DNA of 64,000 nt from Antedon mediterranea (taxonomy: Eukaryota > Echinodermata > Crinoidea > Comatulida > Antedonidae): positions 24,179,201 to 24,243,200 of the forward strand of contig NC_092670.1 in assembly GCF_964355755.1 (NCBI RefSeq), read 5' to 3'. Of the stretch, positions 4,131-61,417 are shown one piece after another; positions within the stretch are counted from its first letter, which is position 1; each line of letters starts with the position of its first letter. The translations under genes were made by a program, and so were the position numbers. The notes under the pieces were generated by a model. The model was not told the DNA's origin. It was given only the letters and a program-made list of their open reading frames with translations, and did not search any database.

Positions 4131-7100
4131 CTTCGATGTTGCTTTTCTTTTTACATACTGCGAATCCGTCGTGCCAGTTTGGATTTCTGTGTGTTTTACT
4201 CCTCCACCATTTGCCGCTCTTTGATTCAATCGATACACCTTAGATAATAAAGATAACATTTATGATACCAGTTATTAGTAAATGAAGAATAACTAGAATA
4301 TCTCTTTTATTTTATTCATGTTTTTTTTCCAATGAACCTGGTGATTGATTTAAAATATGTATTCTGAGTGTAAGCAGGGAAGAATGAATTTCATTCTTGC
4401 CTGGTGTAAGTATTCTCACCATATTTCTTGTAAGAATCAAAATGTTTGACCCTAGGTTTCCATGGTGGAGTGAATGTTAAGTTCGTACCATCTAGCCAAA
4501 CAAATTTTGCATCAGAAAGCTATGATAAAAAGTTGAGCATTAGTTTCAATGTTAATGACTTTATAGACCTTATGATCACAATAATTTAGCAGGCATTTTC
4601 TGTCGGTTGGTAAGTTTTTAATACAAATGAACGTGTTATAGTACTTACAGTTACATTTTCCTTGACGGTTTCTATATTATATAAACCAATATAGCAATGT
4701 GTGCTGTTTTGAGAACACAAGTTCTTTACAAAGTTGTTCTCGATTTCATTAAGTATTGATGTCAAATTTGAGTTCATTTTCTCACATTCGTTTGATGCAT
4801 TCTTCCAACTACTATCATTAAATAGGTAGTAACAATGTTTATTGTGGTATTTCCAATTAGGTTCGCATTCTAATCGAATAATAAATAATAACAATGGTAA
4901 AAAAAAGCTCTTATTCCCCCAGTCTGTTATCTTTACATTTTTTTAAGATGCTAAAATTATGTTTATATTACATCTTTACTAAATGATTAACTGAACCTTT
5001 CCAGGCTCAATATTCCGTATAATCTTAATCCAAACAGTTATATAATACTTGGATATTTATAAATAATGTAAGACCTTAAAATATTACCTGCAGCAAATCT
5101 GCTTCTTTTTTTACATACTGCGAATCCGTCGTGTCGTTTTGGATTGTTGTATTTTCTACTCATGTGCCAGTTTCCGCTCTCTGATTCAATCGATACACCT
5201 GTATAAGAAAAAGTAAGGAATAAGTATAAGGTAATTGTAATGTATTTGTTATCGCATTTGTGATGACTGTAATTTAAAAATCTAGGGAGAACGATGAAAC
5301 TAATTGATGATGTGTATATAAATATTTTACAATAGCATTAGTATTATTTTTACCGTATTCCTTGTAAGAATCAAAACTTGTTTCTGTCAATGGTTTAGTG
5401 AATGTTAAGTTCGTACCATCTGCCCAAACAAATTCTGCATCAGGAAGCTATGATAAAAAGTTGAGTAAGCATGAGTATTTTAGTGATTTTATAGACCTTA
5501 TGATCACTAGTTTAGCAGTCAAGTGGTTGGTAAGTTTGTAATACAAATGAACATGTTAGGCCTATTAGTACTTACAGTTACATTTTCCTTGACGGTTTCT
5601 ATATTATATAAACCAATATAGCAATGTGTGCTGTTTTGAGAACACAAGTTCTTTACAAAGTTGTTTTCGCTTTCATTAAGTATTGATGCCAAAGTTGAGT
5701 TCATTTTCTTACATTCTGTTGATGCATTCTGCCAACTACTGTCATTAAATACGTAGTAACAATGCTCATTGTGGCAACTCCAATCAGCTTCACAATCTAA
5801 ATAGAATGATACTGTCACATTTGTTTTTAACCATAACGACCCACTGCTATGTATAAGCGAATTCGAATAAGCGCCCCGTTTTGAATAAATACCCCCCACC
5901 CCTACCCCCATAGAACATGATAACCCCCCACCCCGGGGATTTATTTCCTCGATTAAACGCCCCGCCACATGCACACAGTGTCAACACATTTCTATTTGTA
6001 GTAGAACTCATTGATTGACATGATCTACAATTCACCAAACATTTTGAAGTTTTACTTTATTTATCACTTCTCGATATTAATTGTGTTGTATTTTTTAATA
6101 TCTATGGGGTATTTATTTGAGTATACATGTTCCCATGTAAAAAAAATAAACACCTACCAGAATAAACACCCCCATACTTAATATTCCATATAATCTTAAC
6201 ATATAAAAGCAATTACTCAAATTATTAGAATAAATAAGTTAATAATGTTATTATTATGTACCTACAATAATTTCAGATTTTTCATTTTTCAAATTGTATT
6301 GTTTAATATCAATAAGTCACAATAAAATAACAATAATAATGGTATTAGTGTATTTTTAGCAGTAATTAATAGGATTAAGGAGAGGCCATCATTTAGTATT
6401 AATACCCTTTTTAATGGGATTAAATTACAGCTCGTCTTTTAATTAACACCATTTTTAGATTATACTTAATTAATTTTAATACTATTAGGTACTATGTACC
6501 TAAAACGAGTAAAAAAACTCACTATCGGTTGAAATGTGTGCACCTTTTCCCGACATATAATGAGTTTGTTTTTCGTTTAGAAACTGAATTGTGTTAGGTT
6601 ATGCATGTTATGGTAAAATGTAAATAAATTGAAGTAGTATTATTCTATTAACAATTTACTCACATATAGCCATAAAAGCTATAGCTGTTAAAAATGTATA
6701 GTCCCCCCCCCCCCACCCCAAAAAAAGTTGAAAATTAAAGATTTGAAAAAAAAAAGGAATTTCAATGACCCACTTCGCAGGTTTTAATAAAATTAATAAG
6801 TTACGTAGAAAAGAAAAAAAAAACAACATGTTTTTACTTCTAAAAATACAAAGTACACTTAGTCACATATAGCTATAAAAGCTATAGCTGTTAAAGATGT
6901 ATTGTCCCCCCAAAAAAGTTGAAAAATAAAGATTAATTAAATAAAAATGTCAATAACCCACTTTGCAGGTGTTAATAAAATTAATAACTTACGTCAGAAA
7001 AGAAAAAAAAAATGTTTTTACTTGTAAAAAGACAAAATAAACGGTTAAATTCAACCAAAAACCCATTGACTTCATTTCATTTACTTCATATACATATTTA

Positions 7101-9617
7101 TTCAGTTATTATATATGACAACAACAACTGGGGCCCTCACTAGAATCAATAGCTTGTCTCATGAGGGCCCCTACAATACAAGTAAGCAGAAATACATAAA
7201 AGAAAAAACATTATAAAACAATAAACAAAATATAAGTCAATCACGAAGGAGAAACAATACAGAGCAGTCAGTTTGACTATGTTTTGCTTTGAATTATAGT
7301 TTTTGGGTAAATAATTTAGTTTTTCGATCCAATTTGTTGTCAAAGTTAATAACTATTATGTGAAATTAAAATGGCATAAGACTATTCAACAAAAATATTT
7401 AAAAACTTTTTTCGGGTTGACAATATAATATTCAATATTCCCATTGTTAGATGTGTAGAGGGTAGGGAGAGAGAGTAGTATTACTTTCAATTAAGTTGAT
7501 TATAACAAACAATCGTTGGCCGAATTCATCTCACCCTAAAGATTGGTTCCGTGAACGCAACGCAAATACGTAAGCGCATCGGAAGTAATTCGACCAATCA
7601 TAGCGCGATATATCATTATCACTCCCGTCGTGATTGGTCAAATGTCTTGCGTTGCTTCTCCTATAACACATATGCATGCACCGTAAGGGAAGTCCTTAGA
7701 TATTTTAAGTATGAAGAGATTGTCATTGACAAAAAAAAATCTATTTTTTAAGGAAACCAAAAAAAAAAGTCAATTTGAAATCTTGTATACTTTTAGTTCT
7801 TTATCATTAGTTTACTAGACATTAACGTTGTAATTGTTGCTGCCGTTGTTTTTTTAACCGGATCCTGATCGGGCCTTGTAAGGAAGACACTGATTTTATT
7901 CTATGGGGTCACAACGTGCTTCAATCCTATTAGACAATTGTTACGCACGCTTTTTACAACTGAATACATTTAAGTTAAAATTGCTGATTTACTGAGTTAT
8001 TGCGAGTATAATCACTGTAGAGTATATTTACTTTAGAACAGATAGGACTAAGACTTACATTTCAAATAACAGTAAAATCGTAGTATGTGCATCATTACAT
8101 TATTTTCAAGGTTGGGACAGTTTAAATTCAGTTTCTCATAAAATTATATACTCTACTGAGAACTTAGCTGGTAATTATGACAATGAATAATTGATCCAAT
8201 TCTTTTGAATATTTTAACAGAATTCATAATCGCGGAAGTACAGTAATATTAATTTGTTTACCCTTGTGTTTGTTGTTGTAGAATGACTGTTATTGTGATT
8301 TTAATATATTAACGCATAATACCTGTTGTTTCTGATTGATCAATTGTGTCTTATGCGGATTCACCCATGACAGAATGATACTGGCAATTATTATGTTTTC
8401 TTTATTTTGTTTGGCTATAATATGATATAAAGCAAACTCAGAGAAGAAAAAAAGGGAGAAGACATGTTGGGCAATTGTTGTCACTTCAACATTTTTTTTT
8501 AAATGCATCAATTATTACACCCAATTGTAGCTGGAATGTTTAGACTAATTAAAATATTACATAAATTCATCTTGTTCCAAATCAATAACATTTTTTAATT
8601 TGTTACTTTTTTGTTGAAACCAAAACAACAAAAATCTAAATTCCTAGAGGAATTTGTCGACACTTTCGTCAAATTTAGACTCTGTCTACACTATCAAAGT
8701 TTATGTGACAAAAATGGGATGTGCCCATAAATGGACATGATGATGTCATATCACTACTATATTTGGGCATAGTACTACCATATTTGGGCACATCACACCT
8801 TTCTTGTTAAACTAGTTTGAGTGTAGACAGAGCGTTAGTGTTTGGATTGTAATTACTTAAAATCTAATTTGGTTCAACTTGAATACAGTATACAAATTCA
8901 AGAATTACCTAACGCACGTTTTCTCCAAAGTTCAACACGTTGTTTAGACAAGTAAATATATTATCTTAATCAGTGGAATCGGCATAGTTTACACATAACC
9001 ATTAACAAAGTACACTGTGTTACCATATAGTGCAATCCAATATTATTATTCATCTTGTAATACCATATACAGTACTTCAATATCTGTTGTTGACTTTACG
9101 AATTACATTACTTTTTTGTATTATCTTCCCGGCATCAATTTTGTTAATTTGTAGTTCGTTTGCAATAGCAACCGATATATTAGCTTCTGATATTCTTTCA
9201 ATCAAAATTGAAAACAACAGCAGTAACAACAATATTTTAATGAATAATTAGTATAAAATTAATTAATTAAATGAATTGAACAGTAATCCAGAATTTATTT
9301 CACTAATTATGATTTAATAACCGGAATAAAAAAAAAATAAATTCAATGAATATTTAATGAAATAATTTTTAAAAGTTCGATAATGATTCGAAAATTTATT
9401 ATCGAACTAAACCAGAAAGTAGTTCACGAGAGCTTTAATAATCGAGTTTTTTTTCTCGGATCTCAAATTACATGAAGCAAACAGCTATCATCAATGTATA
9501 AAACAATATGAAATATCTGAATAAAGTATAATTAATAAATGAATACTTACATGGCGAGGCTTTGGTCATGAAAAATAGACTGGCAAATGAAATCACATAC
9601 ATTTCAAAATAAAACAT
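4131..9617 (-). CDS. secreted or surface C-type lectin with two tandem CTLDs
   Basis: Seven exons fit one reading frame: signal exon 9617-9551; CTLD-1 exons 5796-5576, 5447-5354 and 5198-5088; CTLD-2 exons 4869-4649, 4519-4420 and 4238-4131. Exon 1 encodes MFYFEMYVISFASLFFMTK plus ASP, a typical hydrophobic signal peptide ending in phase 1 at GTAAGT. Each CTLD starts CExxW, then HCYY(V/L)FNDSSW, NEC/TEC, a LASILNE-type stretch and CYIGL; it continues with FVW(A/L)DGTNLTF and ends W-x-DGFAVCKK, the conserved cysteine framework of C-type lectins. The second and third exons of both domains use phases 0 and 1. No EPN or QPD sugar-binding motif is apparent, so carbohydrate binding is uncertain. 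N-x-S/T sites are frequent. The two domains are recent duplicates (both first exons are 221 nt). A CRE lies about 0.6 kb upstream of exon 1. Confidence 0.8.
6655..7030. repeat. tandem duplication of about 200 bp with C runs
   Basis: TCACATATAGC(C/T)ATAAAAGCTATAGCTGTTAAA starts two copies (6659, 6861). Each is followed by TGTA, a C run and GTTGAAAA(A/T)TAAAGATT. It lies in intron 1 of the lectin gene. Confidence 0.75.
7120..7215 (-). mobile_element. LINE 3' UTR remnant with stem
   Basis: GGGGCCCTCAC and TGAGGGCCCC form a stem around a 20-nt loop, followed on the minus strand by a short AT tail. This pattern occurs at LINE 3' ends; no coding part remains. Confidence 0.35.
8679..8834. mobile_element. 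156-bp MITE flanked by TTAG
   Basis: The ends TCTGTCTACACTATCAAAG and TTTGAGTGTAGACAGAG are inverted, with TTAG on both sides (8675-8678, 8835-8838). The interior has GTGCCCATAAATGGACATGATGATGTCA. Related sequence abuts the two duplicated UBL exons near 49190-49250 and 55480-55575. Confidence 0.7.
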
Positions 9618-12097: not shown

Positions 12098-13981
12098 CTA
12101 GCCTCCACGCAGACGGCCCGTCATTTGAATGGTACTCTCATTGGCGATGCCATACGATTGTAAATTTCGTTGGTCTTCGAGATTTTTGCCGCCAAATACC
12201 AACAACTGTTGACTTGGAGAAATTCCAGTTTTTATCTCGATTTTCTTTTTCAATTCACGCACGAGGGTAGATCTCTTCATGCCCGAAAATGTAAGTGTAT
12301 TTCCGTTGGTGGTCTTGACGAATACTTGAAAGTTGTCGATTGTGATGTCCTGGCAGTCTCTGTTGAGCAAGTAAAGTAAATTTAAACGTAACTTACTAGT
12401 ATTTAAATAGAAAAATGGTAGTGCATTGGTAATTTGTATCTAATTCATGAAATAGTAGGCATCCGCATAAGCTTTTTCCGTTCTCATACTTTAAAAAACA
12501 TTCACATTTTATTTCAAATCCAATTTATTGATGTCATCATACGTCGATATAGGCTTACAGCAATTTATTTCTCGGGTGGTGGTCAACCACTAAACAATTC
12601 TTCGAAAGGCCAAAGGTTAAGTTAACTATTTGCAATATTCGAACCTAATATTATCAATGACCTCGTTGGCCTCTTAATTGTTGTCGCCATTATAATCATC
12701 GTTATCATTATCATCGTCATCATCATATTCATCATTATCATCATCATCGTCATCGTCATCATCATCATCGTCGTCGTCTTCGTCGTCATCAGCATCATCA
12801 TCATCATCGTCGTCGTCATAATCGAATCATTTTCATCATTGTCATAAATAATGATTGATCATTACTCACCGTCCTTGTAAGAGAATTTCTATGATCTTTT
12901 GATCTGATTGGACGATTTCTCTCAACCATCTCAACACGTTTCTGAGTGATTCTTGAGTAAACTGCTCAAAAAGATTCTCTGATGGATTGTGGAAGTTTGG
13001 AAGATCGTATTTCTCCATGTATTTGATGAGCGTCCGCAGCAGGTCCTTAAAGCGATCATGAAGATAATCTTGGTGCCATTGTGTAACGCTTGTATCATCG
13101 TTAAGATACAGCATGCATGTCTTTAGATGGTATGACGACAACATTCCAAGTTGAGAAGCACCTCTCTTTACTCGAATCGTCTTCAAGATCTTCAGACAAG
13201 CTCTGCGGCATTCATTCTGCCAATCCATATCACTTATGATTATCTGTTCCTTCTGTGTGTAACTCCTACGCCACAGCTGATCGTAGATGTTCTGTCCAGG
13301 TGCCTGTCGAGAGTTTGGACTTTCTGCTTTTGGGTGTCTCTTTGCTACGTACCTGGTGCCATCGAGTTCGATGCACGGCACAATATCAATCGATAGTTGT
13401 TTTCTGCTGTCATATGTAACATTTATTGTTAAGGCTGGTCCATTAACACTTTGTCTAGCAGTAATCCCAAACAATTCTTGGTTTATCTGGTTCACTACTC
13501 CCTGAACCAAGGATTGCATCTGTCGAAATGTGGATATCGGGTTGATATAGCCATTAACAACGCAGTCGTTCAGATGTGTGGCACCATTTCTAACTTTCTT
13601 TATGAAATAATAGCCTGACGAGTGAGTATTGCATCCCTCGGCATTTTCTTCTGCTTTCCACAGATCAGTGCCCATCTTTATAGGGACCAGAAGGTCAAAT
13701 TCATCCTCTCGTATCACCTTCAAACCCTCATAAGAGCTTCCTTGGTGGTAAATTGTTCCAAACACGAAGTTAGATGTCTTGAAATTATCTTCCAGGATCA
13801 GTTTGATCTTCTCAACGACAGTCTTAGCGCGCTTTTGTTCAACAACAGGAATGCTCACATGTTCGTGGAAGTATTTTCTCAAAGCGTTAAGAAGTGGATC
13901 TCGGCTGCTTTCGAGCTGTCCAATTTGATTTTCTTCTTCTCCATCGGTATCCCGTTTACGAACATGTTGTTTATTCGCCAT
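12098..13981 (-). CDS. cGAS-like receptor (Mab-21 nucleotidyltransferase) fused to a C-terminal ubiquitin-like domain
   Basis: Two coding exons, 13981-12870 and 12359-12098, predict 457 residues. Residues about 30-370 form a Mab-21/cGAS nucleotidyltransferase: GSSYEGLKV at 81-89 (GS motif), DEFDLL with metal ligands E94 and D96, the third ligand D199 in LSIDIVP, and the family signature SSYHLKTCM near 282. No cGAS-type zinc ribbon is seen, as in most invertebrate cGLRs. The donor CG|GTGAGT (phase 2) and acceptor CTTGCTCAACAG|A join in frame, adding 86 residues that align along the whole of ubiquitin (VFVKTTNG, QQLLVF, GKNLED, ESTIQM) and stop immediately after RLRGG. Ubiquitin K27, K29, K33 and K48 have counterparts; I44 is Val and K63 is Asn. 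The start ATG lies 17 nt after a good acceptor (CTATACTTTCAG), so a 5' UTR exon exists upstream. Family knowledge: cGLRs sense nucleic acid and make cyclic dinucleotides that activate STING. The ligand, the product and any conjugation by the UBL tail are inference. Confidence 0.88.
12680..12845. repeat. (ATC/GTC)n microsatellite in the cGLR-UBL intron
   Basis: About 50 trinucleotide units of TCATCA/TCGTCG type lie in the intron between the catalytic exon and the UBL exon, close to the donor. Translations of this tract are spurious. Confidence 0.9.
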
Positions 13982-37375: not shown

Positions 37376-40300
37376 TCACAAAGATTCAATTTTTTCAAAT
37401 AGGTTTTTGTTCATGGACATATAGTTTAGTATGTAATCCCGTACAACTACATGGTAGTTCTGGACACCAAAGAGAATATAACTCAAAGCCCTAAAAAGAC
37501 AGTTGCCGTCCCCTCTCATATTAACAACTTTAGTAGGCCTGGCTGCCTTGTCCATTTCACATTTTAAGTGAGTTTTGTGAAAATTTTTGACATTGATACC
37601 AAATGGTGCTGCCTTTTCAAGCTGCCAATTGGCATCGACAGGAAAGAATAACTTTCTTGAAGTTTTCGTGTTGAGGTATACCACATCACTATCAGATACA
37701 GGCCTACTGTTGTCATGGTCATCATCCGGTGCGACATTATCATTGTCTAATGTAGGTATGTTATCGTGATTATCCAGTGTGATATCATCGTTCTTGGATG
37801 TAGGTATGTTAATGTGATCATCCGGTGTGATATCATAATTCTTGGATGTAGGTCTGTTATCGTTATCATCAACATTCTTGGATGTAGGTATGTTAATAAT
37901 GTGATCATCCGGTGTGATATCACCATTCTTGGATGTAGGTATGTTATCATGGTGCGTTACTTCAGGTGGGATGTCTGGCGTTCGCTTTCGTTTCTTTGGA
38001 GGGAGATGCTTATCATTGGTATTACATTTCTGTTTAGTGCTTGATGATGGACAGTTCAAAGAGGTTGTTTTATCGGACTTGTAATGTCTGATCTTGTTTC
38101 CGTTAACAATAGCCCTTCTTCCTTTTAGTCGATATGTATTGTGAGTGAGGACTTTTTCTATAATATATGGACCAGTCCATCGAGCATTAAGTTTGCCTCC
38201 CTTTCTTGACAAATTTCTGGAATTCTGCAAGAGCACTTGATCTCCTGCATAGTACGTGTTGCTTTTAACACCAGCATCATGATAATGTTTTTGCTTTTTC
38301 TGTGCTTTTTTGATATTTTCTGATGCCTTTCTCCTTGAATCTTTGAGTTTCAAAAAAGCGTCCACTCTTATTTTTAAAGGAACAGTTCCGGATATGTCAT
38401 CTTTATTAGACGAAACGATGGGAATACGTAATTCTACAGGCAACACAGCCTTTCTACCGTAAACTAATGAGAATGGGTCACATTTCGTAGACTTGTGCTC
38501 GGATGTTCTGTAGGCAAACAACACGTATGGGAGTTGTATATCCCAGTCATTTTGGTCTGCGTTGGTCAACGTCATAAGCATTGTGCAAAGTGTTCTGTTA
38601 AAGCGCTCCGTTTGCCCGCCTGTTTGAGGATGGTATGGTGAGGCAACTCTGTGGTCTACCCCAATCAGCTTACAGAAGCTGTCATTCAGCTCATTACAAA
38701 ACTCTCTACCCTGGTCTGTAATCAATATAGAAGGTGTTCCATGTCTGCAGACAAAATCAATAAAAGATCTCAGCACTGTTTTAGCAGATTTATCTGGAAT
38801 TGCATCAGCTTCCACCCATTTGGTAAGGTACTCCGTAAATACAAGTAAGTACCGATTACCTGAAACACAGCAAATAATAATATAATAAGCCGTAATAATA
38901 GTAGTGTCAAAATGTCATGATGAGATGTACAACACCCGAACTGTACGAATGAAATAACAATAATAATAACAATATTAATATCAATAAATATAATAAGAAC
39001 AAGAACAATAATAATATCGTGGATTTACATAGCGCCTAATGTTGTAAAACCTCTATGCGCTGAACAGTATTACCCCAGTCATGGTTTGGATCAAATTAAA
39101 ACAGGCAGAAATAAAGATTATTACAGTATAGCCATAATCGATGTAAATCCGGTGACAATAATAAGAGCATCTGATTCTTGGTAAATCTAGTTTTTGTTGA
39201 CAGTGTAAAAAAGAGAACTGTCATAATTTTAGTTTAGTTAACAATTTCAAGAAACCTCACAGAAATTGCGCTTGTGCCTTTACAATAATAAATTTAAGTT
39301 CAGCCCTATTACAATAAAGGCCGAACAGAACTAATTATTAACTGTAATTTTAGGCCCTGAAGAATGAATTACAAAGTTTTCTGAACGTATTTCATTCATG
39401 TCTTCTTGCTTTTTACTTTTACGTTTTGATTTAGCTTTTTTATCCAGTCACAGCATTTTTGTTTTTCAGTAATTTGTCATGAGATACCTTACCATTTTCT
39501 GTCTTTACCAAAGGCCCAACAATATCCATACCGATCTGTCTGAAAGCAGTATCTGTTACGGGTATAGGTTGAAGTGGCACTTTTGCTTTTTTTAAAACTT
39601 CTTTCCGTTGGCACTGATCACAGGCGGCTATAAAATTACGAACACCATCAAATGACCCCTTCCAATAATACCTTTCGCGTATCTTTTTCCAACTGTTAAA
39701 AAAAAAAAAAAATGTGTTTATTGTATTGATGATATTCAATCTCTTTGTAGGTTTACTATTGACCTTAAAACTGTATTATGGATTCTTTAAATATTTTAAT
39801 TTTATTTTGTTTTTTAATATTATTTATTATTTATTACCGCAGTTCACATCACCATTCTCATCAATGCATTATAATAACATTACAGTTTGGCGTTCCATAT
39901 ATTTTAACTTTTCGTTTAAGGCAAGCACTGGGCACAACTGATTAATTAACTTTTAATATTTATCTATGTTTCTAGTTTTTTTATTTGACAATGATAAATG
40001 AATATTGAAAAGAGAAAAGATACCTTCTATGAAAAATGTCCATCAGTCCGTGATGATTCCGTGTCACATTGTACCAGGGAGATTTACATCTCCCTGATTG
40101 TACCGTGTTTACATTCTAAATACCCCCATATAAACTTCAAATTGAGTGCAGCCTCCCATACAAAATAACTACGCCCTCAATCTGGTAATAATTCACTCAG
40201 GCAATAAAAAACTAACTTGAAAAGTATAAATAATTAATTGTCCTACTAGAATTATTGTGTACGCTTGGTGAATGTGCGACAGAGTAGATATAAAAATCGC

Positions 40301-48885: not shown

Positions 48886-51011
48886 TATTGACAGTTGCTT
48901 CTCAATGTTTGTATTAATTAATAATTACACAATAAACGTCGTAGTGGTGTATAAATGTACTTTACTATTTCAATCGACTATGACAATGACAGTTTCAACA
49001 AAGTATTAAATCGCAAATGTTTGACTCTGTTTGCTGGTATATTATTTATAAAACATGAAAACAAATATTTCGTTACTGAGTGGATAAAAAATATAAATTG
49101 TTCCCCTTTGCACCCATCCTCTTCCCCATTCCTCAACCCTAATGTTACATACAAAAAAACAATTTGGTTATGTACCCAAAAATGTTCATTCCTAGGTCAT
49201 ATATGGGCAAATCACATTTTTTTGTCACATAAAGATTGATAGTGTAGACAGAGCTTGATATATACAATATTTCACCGAACATTATTGCTACCGTTTGTCC
49301 TTTTCGTGACGTTATTCCGTGTAGGAAAAGGCTTATATTTTATAGGCTGTAGCCTAATGTAGGCCTGTAACCTTTTAGGATTGATTTCGATCTGTATTAT
49401 CGACCTCCTCTTAATCTTGGTAGGAGATAAATTGTACTCTGGTCTTTAATGTTGTAATAGCCCAACGTGTTGCCATCTTCTAGTTGTCTACTCTCAAATG
49501 TTAGTCTCTGTTGATCCACTGGAATACGCTCCCTTCCTGCGATTTCATGTTTCAGTTGTTTTACTGTGGTTGATTTGCGCATGTTTTGATAAACGATAGA
49601 TTTTCCATCATGGTTTTTAACAAAAATGTCAAATGTATCGGAGGTACGTGTTGCATAACTAAAGGAAAAAATATATATAATGTAGAAATATTAATTATGT
49701 AAATATAATAATATAATTCGCAAAGAATAACAAAATGATAATCTCAAGTTTTTATGTAATTTGTCAGCGTTTACTTAGCAAAATAATAAGTTTGACACCG
49801 CAAATCTCTCCGGAAACCAACCCGATAATTTATAAAGCGCTATCTGCAGTGCATTAAAGACCTCAAGCTAAAAATGGAATGTTTGATAGTCTAAACCAGT
49901 AAACTGTGAACAGATAAACAAAATGATTATCATCGCACCAAACTTCGCGATACTGGATTATTAAACTATATTTCGAATAGGAAAAACAATCAAATTAGCA
50001 TATAATACAGGTACTATATATGCAAGCAATCCAACATTGTGCAATAAGCATCCAATGATGTTTCCATGGTATTTGGGGGAAAATAAATTCCACTTATTAC
50101 TGGCTTACATTTTATTCAGTAGGAAACTGATAATTCATCATCACGCATAGCTCTTTTAAGCCATCCCAGAATGTTGTCCAGTGAGGCAGGCTTATACCGA
50201 TCAAGAAGATTCACTGATTCGCAGAAGAAGTTGGGCACGTTGCGTTTTTCAAGGAAAAGCATCAGAGTCTGAACCAAATCTTTGAATCTATCTGCTAAAC
50301 TGTCTTGGTGCCACGATAGGTCAGGACCGTCCTTGTTTAAATGCAGCATACAGTCTTAAGGTGATATGACGACAGCATTCCTAGTTGTGAAGATCCTGCC
50401 TTCTTCTGAACTGTCTTCAGAATTTTCAGGGTATCACTACGGCATTCATTTATTTTGTCAATGCTGTTGAATATACTTTTTTCTCTATCCGAGAAACTCT
50501 CCCTCCATAATTGATCGTATTCAGAAGTATTTAAATGACGAGGACCTTTAGCCACAAAGTGCCTACCATCAATAGTTAAGCTTGGAACTATATCAATAGA
50601 CATTACTTCCACCGTTGGATATTAAATACATGGCTGGACCACCAGATTCCTTAGGGGTTATCGTCATGCCTAGGTCATTCTCATCGCCATGAACTATTTT
50701 GTCTACGGTTGACTGCATGTTCTGACGAACTGTATCAGGGTTCAATCGCCCGGCTTTTATAAAATCAGCCAATGTAGATTCAATCGAATGTGACGTTTTC
50801 TCAATCAAATAGTAGCCATCTAATCTTCCTTCTGTGATTCTCCAATTATTAGTAGACAGTTTCAAAGGAACCAGTAAATCAAATTCGTCTGCCTTAATCA
50901 CCTTCAAACCTTCGTATGTACTTCCTTGATGAAAGATCTGCTTAAAGTTAAATGATGAAGAGTGATGGGAGATCTCGAACTTTTTTATATTTTTTCAACG
51001 GCTTCTTTTGC

Positions 51012-52650: not shown

Positions 52651-52739
52651 TTTTGCTTGTCTCTGTTCATGTTGAGGGATGTTGACCTCATCTAGAAGGT
52701 AACTCCTTAGAGCTCCTATCAAATTTGCTGCACACATAC

Positions 52740-55716: not shown

Positions 55717-57369
55717 TTATCGACCTCCTCTTAATCTTGGTAGGAGATAAATTGTACTCTGGTCTTTAATGCTGTAATAGCCCAATGTGTTGCCATCTTC
55801 TAGTTGTCTACTCTCAAATGTTAGTCTCTGTTGATCCACTGGAACACGCTCCCTTCCTGCGATTTCATGTTTCAGTTGTTTTACTGTGGTTGATCTGCGC
55901 ATGTTTTGATAAACGATAGATTTTCCATCAAGGTTTTTGACAAAAATGTCAAAGGTATCAGAGGTACGTGTTGCATAACTAAAGGAAAAATATATATAAT
56001 GTAGAAATATTAATTATGTAAATATAATAATACAATTCGCAAAGAATAACAAAATGATAATCTCAAGTTTCATGTCATTTGTCAGAGTTTTACTTAGCAA
56101 AATAAGAGATGTGTGACATCGGAAATCTCTCCGATGAATTACAAAGCGCTATCTGCAGTGCATTAAAGACCTCAAGCTAAAAATGGAACTTTTGATAGTC
56201 AAAAACAGTAAACTGTGAACATCATTGCGCCAAACTTCGCGATACTGACCCTTAAACTATATTTCGAATAGGCAAAACAATAAAATGACACTATATGCAA
56301 GCAATCCAATATTTTGCAATAAGCATCCAATAATGTTTCCATAGTATTCGGAGAAAAATAAATTCCACTTATTACTGGTTTACCTTTTATTCAGTAGTAC
56401 TCTGATAATATGCTCATCATCACGTGTAGCTCTTCTAAGCCATCCCAGAATGTTGTTCAGTGAGTCTGCATCATAGCGATCAAGCAGATTCACTGATCCA
56501 CGGAAGAAGTTTGGCATGTTGCGAGTTTCAAGAAAGTGCATCAGAGTCTGAACCAAGTCTTTGAATCTATCTGCTAAACTTTCTTGGTGCCACGATAGGT
56601 CAGGACGGTCGCTATTTAAATGTAGCATACACGTTTTAAGGTGATACGACGACAACATTCCGAGTTGTGACAACCCTGCCTTCTTCTGAACTGTCTTCAG
56701 AATTTTCAGGGTATCTCTACGGCATTCATTTATTCGGTCGATGTTGTTGAATATACTTTTTTCTCTATCCGAGAAACTCTCCCTCCATAATTGATCGTAT
56801 TCAGGAGTATGTAAATGACGAGGACTTTTAGCCACAAAGTGCCTACCACCAATGTTTAGGCTTGGAACTATATCAATAGACATACTTCTTCCGTTGTATC
56901 CAACATCCAACGTTATGGCTGGACCAGAATAACTAAGGTTTATCCTCATACCTAGGTCACCAATTCCATTAACAACTGTCTGCACAGTTGACTGCATGCT
57001 CCTTCGAACTCTATCAGGGTTCAATCGTCCGTCTTCTATAAGGTTACCCAATGTCGAGTCAGTGTAATGTGACGTTTTCTCAATCAAATAGTAGCCATCT
57101 AATCCTCCTCCTGTGATTCTCCAATTAGTAGATAGGTTCAAAGGAACCAGTAAATCAAACTCATCTGCCGCTATTACCTTCAAACCTTCATATGAACTTC
57201 CTTGATGAAAGATCTGCCTGAAGTTAAATGGTGAAGAGTGGTGGGATCTCACAAACACGTTTTTTATTTTTTGAATGGCATCTTTTGCTTGTGTCTGTTC
57301 ATGTTGAGGGATGTTAACTTCATTTAGAAGGTAACTCCTTAGAGCTCCTATCAAATTTGCTGCACACAT
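55717..57369 (-). CDS. cGAS-like receptor with C-terminal ubiquitin-like domain (tandem paralogue)
   Basis: Exons 57369-56384 and 55978-55717 predict 415 residues. GSSYEGLKV (GS at 57-58), E70 and D72 in ADEFDLL, and D166 in MSIDIVP are all intact, followed by SSYHLKTCM. I start at the ATG at 57369 because a polypyrimidine acceptor (TTTTACAATTTTTAG) lies 8 nt upstream; the open frame continues further 5' only through intron sequence. The donor AAAAG|GTAAAC (phase 2) and acceptor TTTTCCTTTAG|T fuse in frame. The UBL exon is 262 nt, exactly the length of the UBL exon in the 12.1-kb gene. The UBL retains VDQQRL, LEDG, DQSTI and R72-L-R-G-G, but ubiquitin I44 is Thr and K48 is Arg. The protein ends GG plus one Arg, so, as in ubiquitin precursors, one residue would have to be removed to expose the diglycine. 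A possible AATAAA signal lies about 50 nt past the stop. Confidence 0.88.
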
Positions 57370-60279: not shown

Positions 60280-61417
60280 TTATTCAACTTGGTCCTGAAT
60301 ACTTTGTGGTTTTCTGTCAAAAAAAAAAGACAAAATGTTTTATTTCAGTTAAAATATCTAAAAATTCTGTTGATTATAAACGTTAGACTGTTGCCGTAGA
60401 TTCTTACTTTTTGTGAAGTAACACACTGATTATCTGCTCGTCATCGCGTCTAGCATTTTCCAGCCACTTCACAATATGATCCAGGGATTCTTTGTTGTAC
60501 TTAATATTATTAATAATTAGATTCATTGACCTGCAGTGAAAGTGTGGTATGTTGGAGTCCCTAAGAAAATCTATCAATGTCTGAACTAAATCCTTGAACC
60601 TATCTGCCAATTTGTCTGGCTCCCACGATAATTCAGAACGATTGGCTAAATGAAGCATGCATGTTTTCAGGTGATAAGACGACAGTAGTTTTAGTTGGGA
60701 TTCTCCTCTTTTTTCCCGAATTGTCTTTAGAATTTTTAGACAATCTCGACGGCATTCATTCATTTTGTCCATAGCTTTTATTCTTTTTTTTTCTTTCTTG
60801 GAAAAGCTCTCCCTCCATAGTTGACCGTATTCCTTGTGATCACGAAGATGCCGGGGACTTTTAGCAACAAAATGTCTGCCGTTTAGTATTAAGCCTGGAA
60901 CAATATCAATAGACAACTTTTTGTCGTTGAACTTTAGTGTGATAGCTGGGCCAGAACTTCTCAGGTTTATTGTCATTCCTGTCATACCATTGACAGCTTT
61001 CTGCACAGTCGACTGCATGCATTTACGCACTTTTTCCGGTATCAATCTCTCTTGCTCTATTAGGTCATCAAAGGTCTTGTCATTTTCATTTGAATTCTGT
61101 GACTTCTCTGACTTTTCAATCCAAAAGTAGTTACCTAGGTCTTTTTCTTTTGGTTCTTTGATTTTCCAATCGCTAGATTTTAGGTTAAGAGGAATCAAAA
61201 GGTCAAATTCATCAGCTGCTATGACCTTTAGACCTTCGTATGAACTTCCTTGATGGTAGATCTGCTTGAAGTTGAATGGCGAGGAGTGTTGGAATTTATG
61301 AAAAGCTTCTCGAATCTTTTGAACGGCTTCTTTGGCCTGTGTTTGTTCAAGTTTAGTAAAAGTGACTTCAGTTTTAAGATAATTCCTTAGCTCCAGCAAC
61401 AGGTTTGATTCAGACAT
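60280..61417 (-). CDS. cGAS-like receptor without a ubiquitin-like domain
   Basis: The main exon 61417-60408 encodes about 337 residues: MSESNLLLEL start, GSSYEGLKV (GS at 57-58), E70 and D72 (ADEFDLL), D171 (LSIDIVPGL), SSYHLKTCM and a C-terminal HKK. The start follows the acceptor TTTTATCTTTTCAG|ACA-ATG directly, so coding sequence upstream of it is excluded. The 3' end keeps the family's phase-2 donor (AAAAA|GTAAGA). The nearest acceptor, a long T tract ending GACAG at 60314, would add a short tail, KPQSIQDQVE, before a stop at 60280. Reading through instead stops after HKK at 60404. No LRGG-bearing exon is visible between this gene and the next paralogue; that interval holds a SINE and the upstream part of the neighbouring duplication unit. 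The catalytic residues are intact, so an active enzyme is likely. The tail exon itself is tentative. Confidence 0.8.

Follow-up and report, generated by a model that had tools for sequence, protein, structure and literature searches.

A crinoid cGAS-like receptor with a ubiquitin-like domain and a conserved LRGG end that suggests chemical linkage of the enzyme to other proteins

Results

A cGAS-like receptor gene with a ubiquitin-like second exon

The window, a stretch of 64,000 nucleotides of Antedon mediterranea DNA, carries on its minus strand a two-exon gene for a Mab-21/cGAS-like nucleotidyltransferase together with related genes and other features (Table 1). The catalytic exon of this focal gene spans 1112 nt from its ATG to a GTGAGT donor and ends in phase 2. 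The 262-nt exon behind the acceptor (...TTGCTCAACAG) restores the frame, encodes a ubiquitin-like domain (UBL) and closes with RLRGG-TAG. Joined, the two exons give a product of 457 aa that is identical at 457/457 aa to the NCBI protein 'cyclic GMP-AMP synthase-like receptor 3 [Antedon mediterranea]' (P0001). This bears out a first-pass annotation of the locus, made from the letters alone, which had proposed that the next acceptor restores the frame into a UBL ending R-L-R-G-G-stop.

Table 1. Features of the window (positions in the window; all on the minus strand)
Feature	Position	Strand	Basis or remark
Catalytic exon, Mab-21/cGAS-like nucleotidyltransferase and helical C-terminal domain, residues 1-371 (the intron interrupts codon 371)	12870..13981	-	reading frame, Pfam
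G81-S82, nucleotidyltransferase GS motif	13736..13741	-	coordinates from frame; invariant 18/18
E94-F95-D96, acidic pair (ExD)	13694..13702	-	E94 and D96 invariant 18/18
D199, third acidic residue	13385..13387	-	invariant 18/18
Intron, GTGAGT...CAG	12360..12869	-	510 bases; splicing there yields the NCBI protein
Ubiquitin-like exon including stop	12098..12359	-	Pfam ubiquitin 1e-20, exon alone
Codons of the free C-terminus R-L-R-G-G (ubiquitin positions 72-76)	12101..12115	-	reading frame, UBL alignment
Paralog P0007: catalytic exon 57369-56384, UBL exon 55978-55717, ends RLRGGR	55717..57369	-	identical to NCBI protein
Broken near-copy of P0007: catalytic exon in 3 frames, UBL exon 49658-49397 open, ends RLRGGR	49397..50994	-	
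Paralog P0015, lacking a UBL: catalytic exon 61417-60408; second exon 60313-60280 short and unrelated	60280..61417	-	identical to NCBI protein
Retrotransposon integrase core running into a weak OTU protease-like stretch	37376-38914	-	rve 6.6e-10; OTU E 0.0096, below cut-off
Pair of similar C-type lectin exons	4586-5980	-	

In the joined protein, Pfam detects Mab-21 (1.2e-16), Mab-21_C (3.3e-17), MID51-like_C (6e-13) and a single ubiquitin stretch (2.2e-19, residues 383-455), all above the curated cut-offs. The residues G81, S82, E94, D96 and D199 are unchanged across the 18/18 sequences of alignment A1. Mab-21 and Mab-21_C domains, the GS motif and three acidic residues are the features of the cGAS-like receptor (cGLR)/Mab-21 family; the annotated catalytic exon with GS, ExD and D intact and a consensus donor is thereby corroborated. 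The UBL matches ubiquitin at 37/76 positions. Further, the hydropathy profile of P0001 reaches a top 19-residue mean of 0.62, at residue 170, and contains no strongly hydrophobic window.

The predicted model shows a cGAS-like fold, that of MiD51/cGAS, and the matches listed from the PDB fold comparison span the catalytic part only, about residues 23-372. By sequence, the nearest solved structures in the PDB are those of MiD51, not of cGAS; in the sequence alignment with MiD51, the latter has H and Q where the focal protein has E94 and D96. Residues 371-380, between the catalytic domain and the UBL, are modelled with a mean pLDDT of 59, and residues 454-457, beyond the folded UBL, with a pLDDT <50. 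The whole-protein model has a pTM of 0.68, with a domain placement that is not confident. Taken together, the sequence features make the focal protein most likely a crinoid cGLR with intact catalytic residues, no hydrophobic anchor, one UBL and a free, flexible LRGG end.

Related genes in the window and in the genome

The broken near-copy of P0007 has diverged little from the intact gene in its UBL exon, where 8/258 bases differ, affecting 4 synonymous and 4 non-synonymous codons (dN 0.020, dS 0.073); these differences are too few for an inference on constraint. The P0007 coding exon has its first 23 bases duplicated at 52737 (-), ~1.7 kb upstream of the remainder of the broken copy (50994-50119), which looks as if an insertion had split it.

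The focal gene, P0007 and P0015 all have their first junction in phase 2, and exon lengths give the same phase for two genes elsewhere in the genome, L013 and a gene on C7. In L013 (C1:23.48 Mb), an acidic linker comes after the catalytic exon, then a hydrophobic stretch, and last a UBL that breaks off ahead of the tail; this gene is an exon chain assembled here, without a matching NCBI protein. The C7 gene runs from the catalytic exon through a hydrophobic stretch and a tail-less UBL into more hydrophobic repeats, and its assembled chain equals the NCBI isoform P0025. At this locus (G000:C7:24485257-24492789), the NCBI isoforms X1 (P0025) and X2 (P0024) represent two catalytic exons with one common hydrophobic-UBL-hydrophobic tail, and the whole receptor domain may be swapped between isoforms.

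The order of Mab-21 followed by ubiquitin, for which the first-pass annotation had suggested a search of echinoderm and other invertebrate proteomes, recurs in proteins of Antedon and Anneissia japonica. Pfam ubiquitin is listed for 7/23, 2/3 and 8/29 of the proteins from our relatives searches, all of them from Antedon or Anneissia; these searches reach only proteins sharing short exact words, and one scored just the 7999 candidates richest in such words. The whole comparison covers two crinoid genera. Five of the proteins listed for Anneissia japonica (P0002-P0006, including two with isoform names) combine both domains, and P0002 and P0003 are 69% and 64% identical to the focal protein over 99-100% of its length. 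The NCBI names of proteins with both domains include 'cyclic GMP-AMP synthase-like' and 'mitochondrial dynamics protein MID51-like'. A further Anneissia japonica protein, P0026, combines two Mab-21-type domains in one chain of 871 aa with a hydrophobic segment in between.

The LRGG tail is retained while the ubiquitin patch drifts

LRGG is present in 7/7 of the proteins P0001-P0007; it is terminal in six, while P0007 ends LRGGR. For the UBL alignment, P0005 was set aside, its UBL being the same as that of P0004. Across the six distinct sequences, ubiquitin positions 73-76 are all invariant, as are 18/72 of the other positions. A random draw of 4/4 invariant positions has a chance of ~0.006, a value obtained from six related sequences of two genera and not corrected for relatedness. 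In contrast, 0/4 of the ubiquitin patch positions 8, 44, 68 and 70 are invariant in this alignment; conservative changes among them are V44 (focal clade) and L70 (other clade), and P0007 keeps L8. Lysine 48 is kept in 4/6 sequences and lysine 63 in 0/6.

A review describes R42, R72 and R74 of ubiquitin as touching the crossover loop of UBA1, with R72 pivotal (PMC12355090). R72 and R74 are kept in the focal protein; R42 is replaced by L, L and V in the focal protein, P0002 and P0003, R72 by G in P0004 and P0005, and L71 by G or P in all.

A maximum-likelihood tree computed from the catalytic regions of 21 proteins resolves the LRGG members into two clades with both genera in each, which means that the tail was kept on either side of the Antedon-Anneissia split in each clade. 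One clade comprises the focal protein, P0002 and P0003 (support 100/99). The other unites P0004/P0005/P0006 and P0007 with the UBL-less proteins P0008, P0014 and P0015 (support 100/99), in which the absent UBL is most simply explained as a loss; the UBL is thus dispensable for some members. The three tail-less UBL proteins group as one clade in the same tree. Windows of 19 residues with a mean hydropathy of >=1.6 occur in 3/3 tail-less UBL members vs 0/7 LRGG members, L013 lying only just over this threshold with 1.83. Because the tail-less members belong to a single clade, in which P0024 and P0025 have their tail in common, the contrast between hydrophobicity and tail amounts to a single event and is only suggestive.

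That LRGG persists as the patch residues change speaks for a role that depends on the tail rather than for simple docking. A conserved, disordered and free diglycine on a patch-drifted ubiquitin fold indicates that the C-terminus has a function of its own.

Ubiquitin genes, other UBLs and STING exons in the genome

Polyubiquitin is encoded at two loci of the Antedon genome, and two further ubiquitin units stand singly, fused to sequence that we take to be that of RPL40 and RPS27a. The polyubiquitin on C6 has an L after its final GG, comparable to the R after GG in P0007. Identity to ubiquitin ranges from 33 to 38/76 among the cGLR UBLs, and 30-42 of 81-82 positions are identical between the two LRGG clades. 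UBL trees computed with the tail removed are compatible with one or with several captures of the UBL: one of these trees requires two changes for the cGLR UBLs, with no well-supported branch forcing more than one.

Ubiquitin-like sequences also occur at other loci. At L051 (G000:C5:1834500-1844400), two tandem two-exon genes on the plus strand (4533-5009 and 7447-8248) are predicted to encode free-standing UBLs of ~90 aa that end LLLRLRGG-stop. They are 49/76 identical mutually and 34/76 and 31/76 identical to ubiquitin, and their products are possible dedicated free modifiers of the crinoid, ISG15-like in form only. L048 and L049 (G000:C4:35.57 and 35.65 Mb) contain ubiquitin-like ORFs, one ending VLRYRGGSGMYIFK, with death effector domain-like stretches within a few kb (DED, E ~1e-6, below the curated cut-off); these are possibly UBLs in other immune genes.

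STING_LBD exon matches number 15, all within C1:19.07-19.11 Mb. These STING ligand-binding-domain exons stand in tandem at G000:C1:19073747-19107246, and 7/15 extend from the first half of the domain as far as profile positions 97-101. OAS1_C exon matches number two, on C11 and C9.

Discussion

Possible conjugation of the receptor

The focal cGLR most likely senses an infection ligand and would then make a cyclic nucleotide that is read by STING, a role suggested by its family, its catalytic residues and the STING cluster. Its C-terminus, a ubiquitin-type domain with an exposed GG as in conjugatable modifiers, would be activated by a host ubiquitin-type E1 and joined to the cGLR itself or to a target protein. 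Such conjugation would concentrate, place or license the enzyme, comparable to the Cap2-conjugated bacterial cGAS and the reported self-conjugation of chicken OASL. The LRGG end suggests that the cGLR could be coupled chemically to other proteins like its bacterial and bird relatives.

Conjugation is favoured by the signal for a function of the C-terminus together with the two published systems, bacterial cGAS and chicken OASL. On these grounds of sequence and analogy, we regard the focal protein as an evenly balanced candidate for a conjugation-competent cGLR with E1-dependent self- or target-conjugation. A wider proposal, which we advance tentatively and with more doubt than confidence, is that crinoid cGLRs would act as ubiquitin-type modifiers that the ubiquitin E1 cascade attaches via LRGG to the cGLRs themselves or to targets, in convergence with type II CBASS and bird OASL, and that the membrane-anchored paralogs would have swapped the covalent anchor for transmembrane segments.

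The main rival is a non-covalent docking module similar to that of human OASL, in which the LRGG end aids binding or is neutral. The UBLs of human OASL are reported to act in place of polyubiquitin on RIG-I, and mammalian OASL is described as being without LRLRGG (PMC4446440, PMC8764230). Moreover, the paralogs with hydrophobic segments keep a tail-less UBL, which argues for a use of the UBL independent of LRGG, and patch residues are replaced conservatively in the case of V44 (focal clade) and L70 (other clade). Nonetheless, none of the patch positions 8, 44, 68 and 70 is invariant, whereas LRGG is found in 6/6 distinct sequences, and docking has no need of a free GG end; we consider docking a serious but rather unlikely explanation. 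Alternatively, the UBL might govern turnover or autoinhibition, through binding of the proteasome, p97 or a deubiquitinase or by folding back on the enzyme, with the tail being read by a deubiquitinase rather than an E1. A tail-specific contact of this kind would conserve LRGG as well, and the two domains stand close together in sequence across the linker 371-380 (mean pLDDT 59). At the residue level, no support for such a role emerged and the placement of the domains is not confident (pTM 0.68), which leaves this reading improbable.

The tail might also be a relict: a ubiquitin unit taken over from a polyubiquitin gene would have carried LRGG along, and the motif would persist by inertia. Any of the two polyubiquitin loci and two single units could be the donor, yet the UBLs have diverged to 33-38/76 identity with ubiquitin while LRGG stayed unchanged, and the third clade lacks the tail, so its loss is tolerated there; inertia is accordingly a very improbable cause. 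Finally, the fusion might be a gene-model error that joins exons of separate genes, given that NCBI models can be predictions. However, order, strand and phase-2 junction are alike in the focal, P0007, L013 and C7 genes, and the NCBI models of two genera agree. This recurrence rules out the separate-gene reading for practical purposes, and we give it almost no weight. The reading that we prefer remains the conjugation-competent cGLR.

Novelty of the architecture

The first-pass annotation knew of no description of this architecture in animals, a view that holds in part. A Mab-21/cGLR protein with a UBL or its tail in print was not found in the full text of open PMC papers, among the matches listed. 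The word 'ubiquitin' occurs 0 times in a paper on evolution (PMC10732462), and the available portions of PMC12424679, PMC10855445 and PMC13372824 make no mention of a cGLR-UBL fusion. On the other hand, proteins with both Pfam domains already stand in the NCBI database, and the avian OASL parallel is in print (PMC8764230). Mab-21-like cGAS domains are also described as parts of other immune proteins with several domains, and the passages on them name no ubiquitin-like domain (PMC8195603); fusions of a Mab-21-type enzyme as such are thus already known.

Comparison with known systems

Among animal cGLRs, cGAS and cGLR1 are without the C-terminal UBL of the crinoid protein, and identity to cGAS is only ~20%. 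MiD51 and MiD49 have an N-terminal membrane anchor. The crinoid protein differs from them by keeping E94 and D96, by having no strongly hydrophobic window and by its UBL. For function, we rejected the reading as a MiD51 ortholog because the protein retains the acidic pair.

The parallels to OASL and type II CBASS that the first-pass annotation had drawn proved apt, avian OASL and bacterial cGAS being the closest precedents. Human OASL shares with the crinoid protein C-terminal UBLs on a protein of the OAS/cGAS superfamily; unlike the latter, it is described as catalytically inactive, without LRLRGG and with two UBLs (PMC4446440). Avian OASL comes closer as a nucleotidyltransferase immune sensor of the cGAS/OAS superfamily with a C-terminal UBL sequence and the ubiquitin tail motif, and it is made as a pro-form with residues past GG, like the paralog P0007 (PMC8764230). 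In chicken OASL, where LRLRGG follows the tandem UBLs, covalent species are reported in DF-1 cells, mainly with OASL itself, and modification sites are assigned to 21/32 lysines (PMC8764230). These data come from overexpression in which OASL was not separable from OAS*A, and the available text contains no GG-less control and the word 'mutant' 0 times (PMC8764230). While avian OASL is of the OAS type with two tandem UBLs, the crinoid protein is of the Mab-21/cGLR type with one UBL, the focal copy ending on GG. Membership in OASL was rejected, as OAS1_C is absent among the 10 Pfam families listed to E 1 and there is one ubiquitin stretch only.

The CD-NTases of type II CBASS share with the crinoid protein a cGAS-like enzyme with a conserved C-terminal glycine (or alanine) as the attachment point (PMC10097602, PMC11153139), and the focal protein ends G-G. 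In bacteria, Cap2 and Cap3 are the operon partners of these CD-NTases. The terminal glycine of bacterial cGAS forms a thioester with Cap2, and conjugation raises its cGAMP output (PMC10097602). Another type II CBASS cyclase is conjugated to PspA, which is proposed to keep the cyclase inactive (PMC11153139). These enzymes have no ubiquitin fold or diglycine and use a dedicated E1-E2 (PMC10097602, PMC11153139); the crinoid protein, in contrast, has a whole ubiquitin domain and would use the eukaryotic machinery. In bacteria, cGAS-like enzymes are regulated through attachment of their C-terminus in a ubiquitin-like manner. With a cGLR that has a whole ubiquitin domain and in which the attachment motif is conserved, the question of an animal counterpart becomes directly testable in an animal gene. 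If the crinoid protein is indeed conjugated, the OAS and cGAS branches would each have arrived at the same design.
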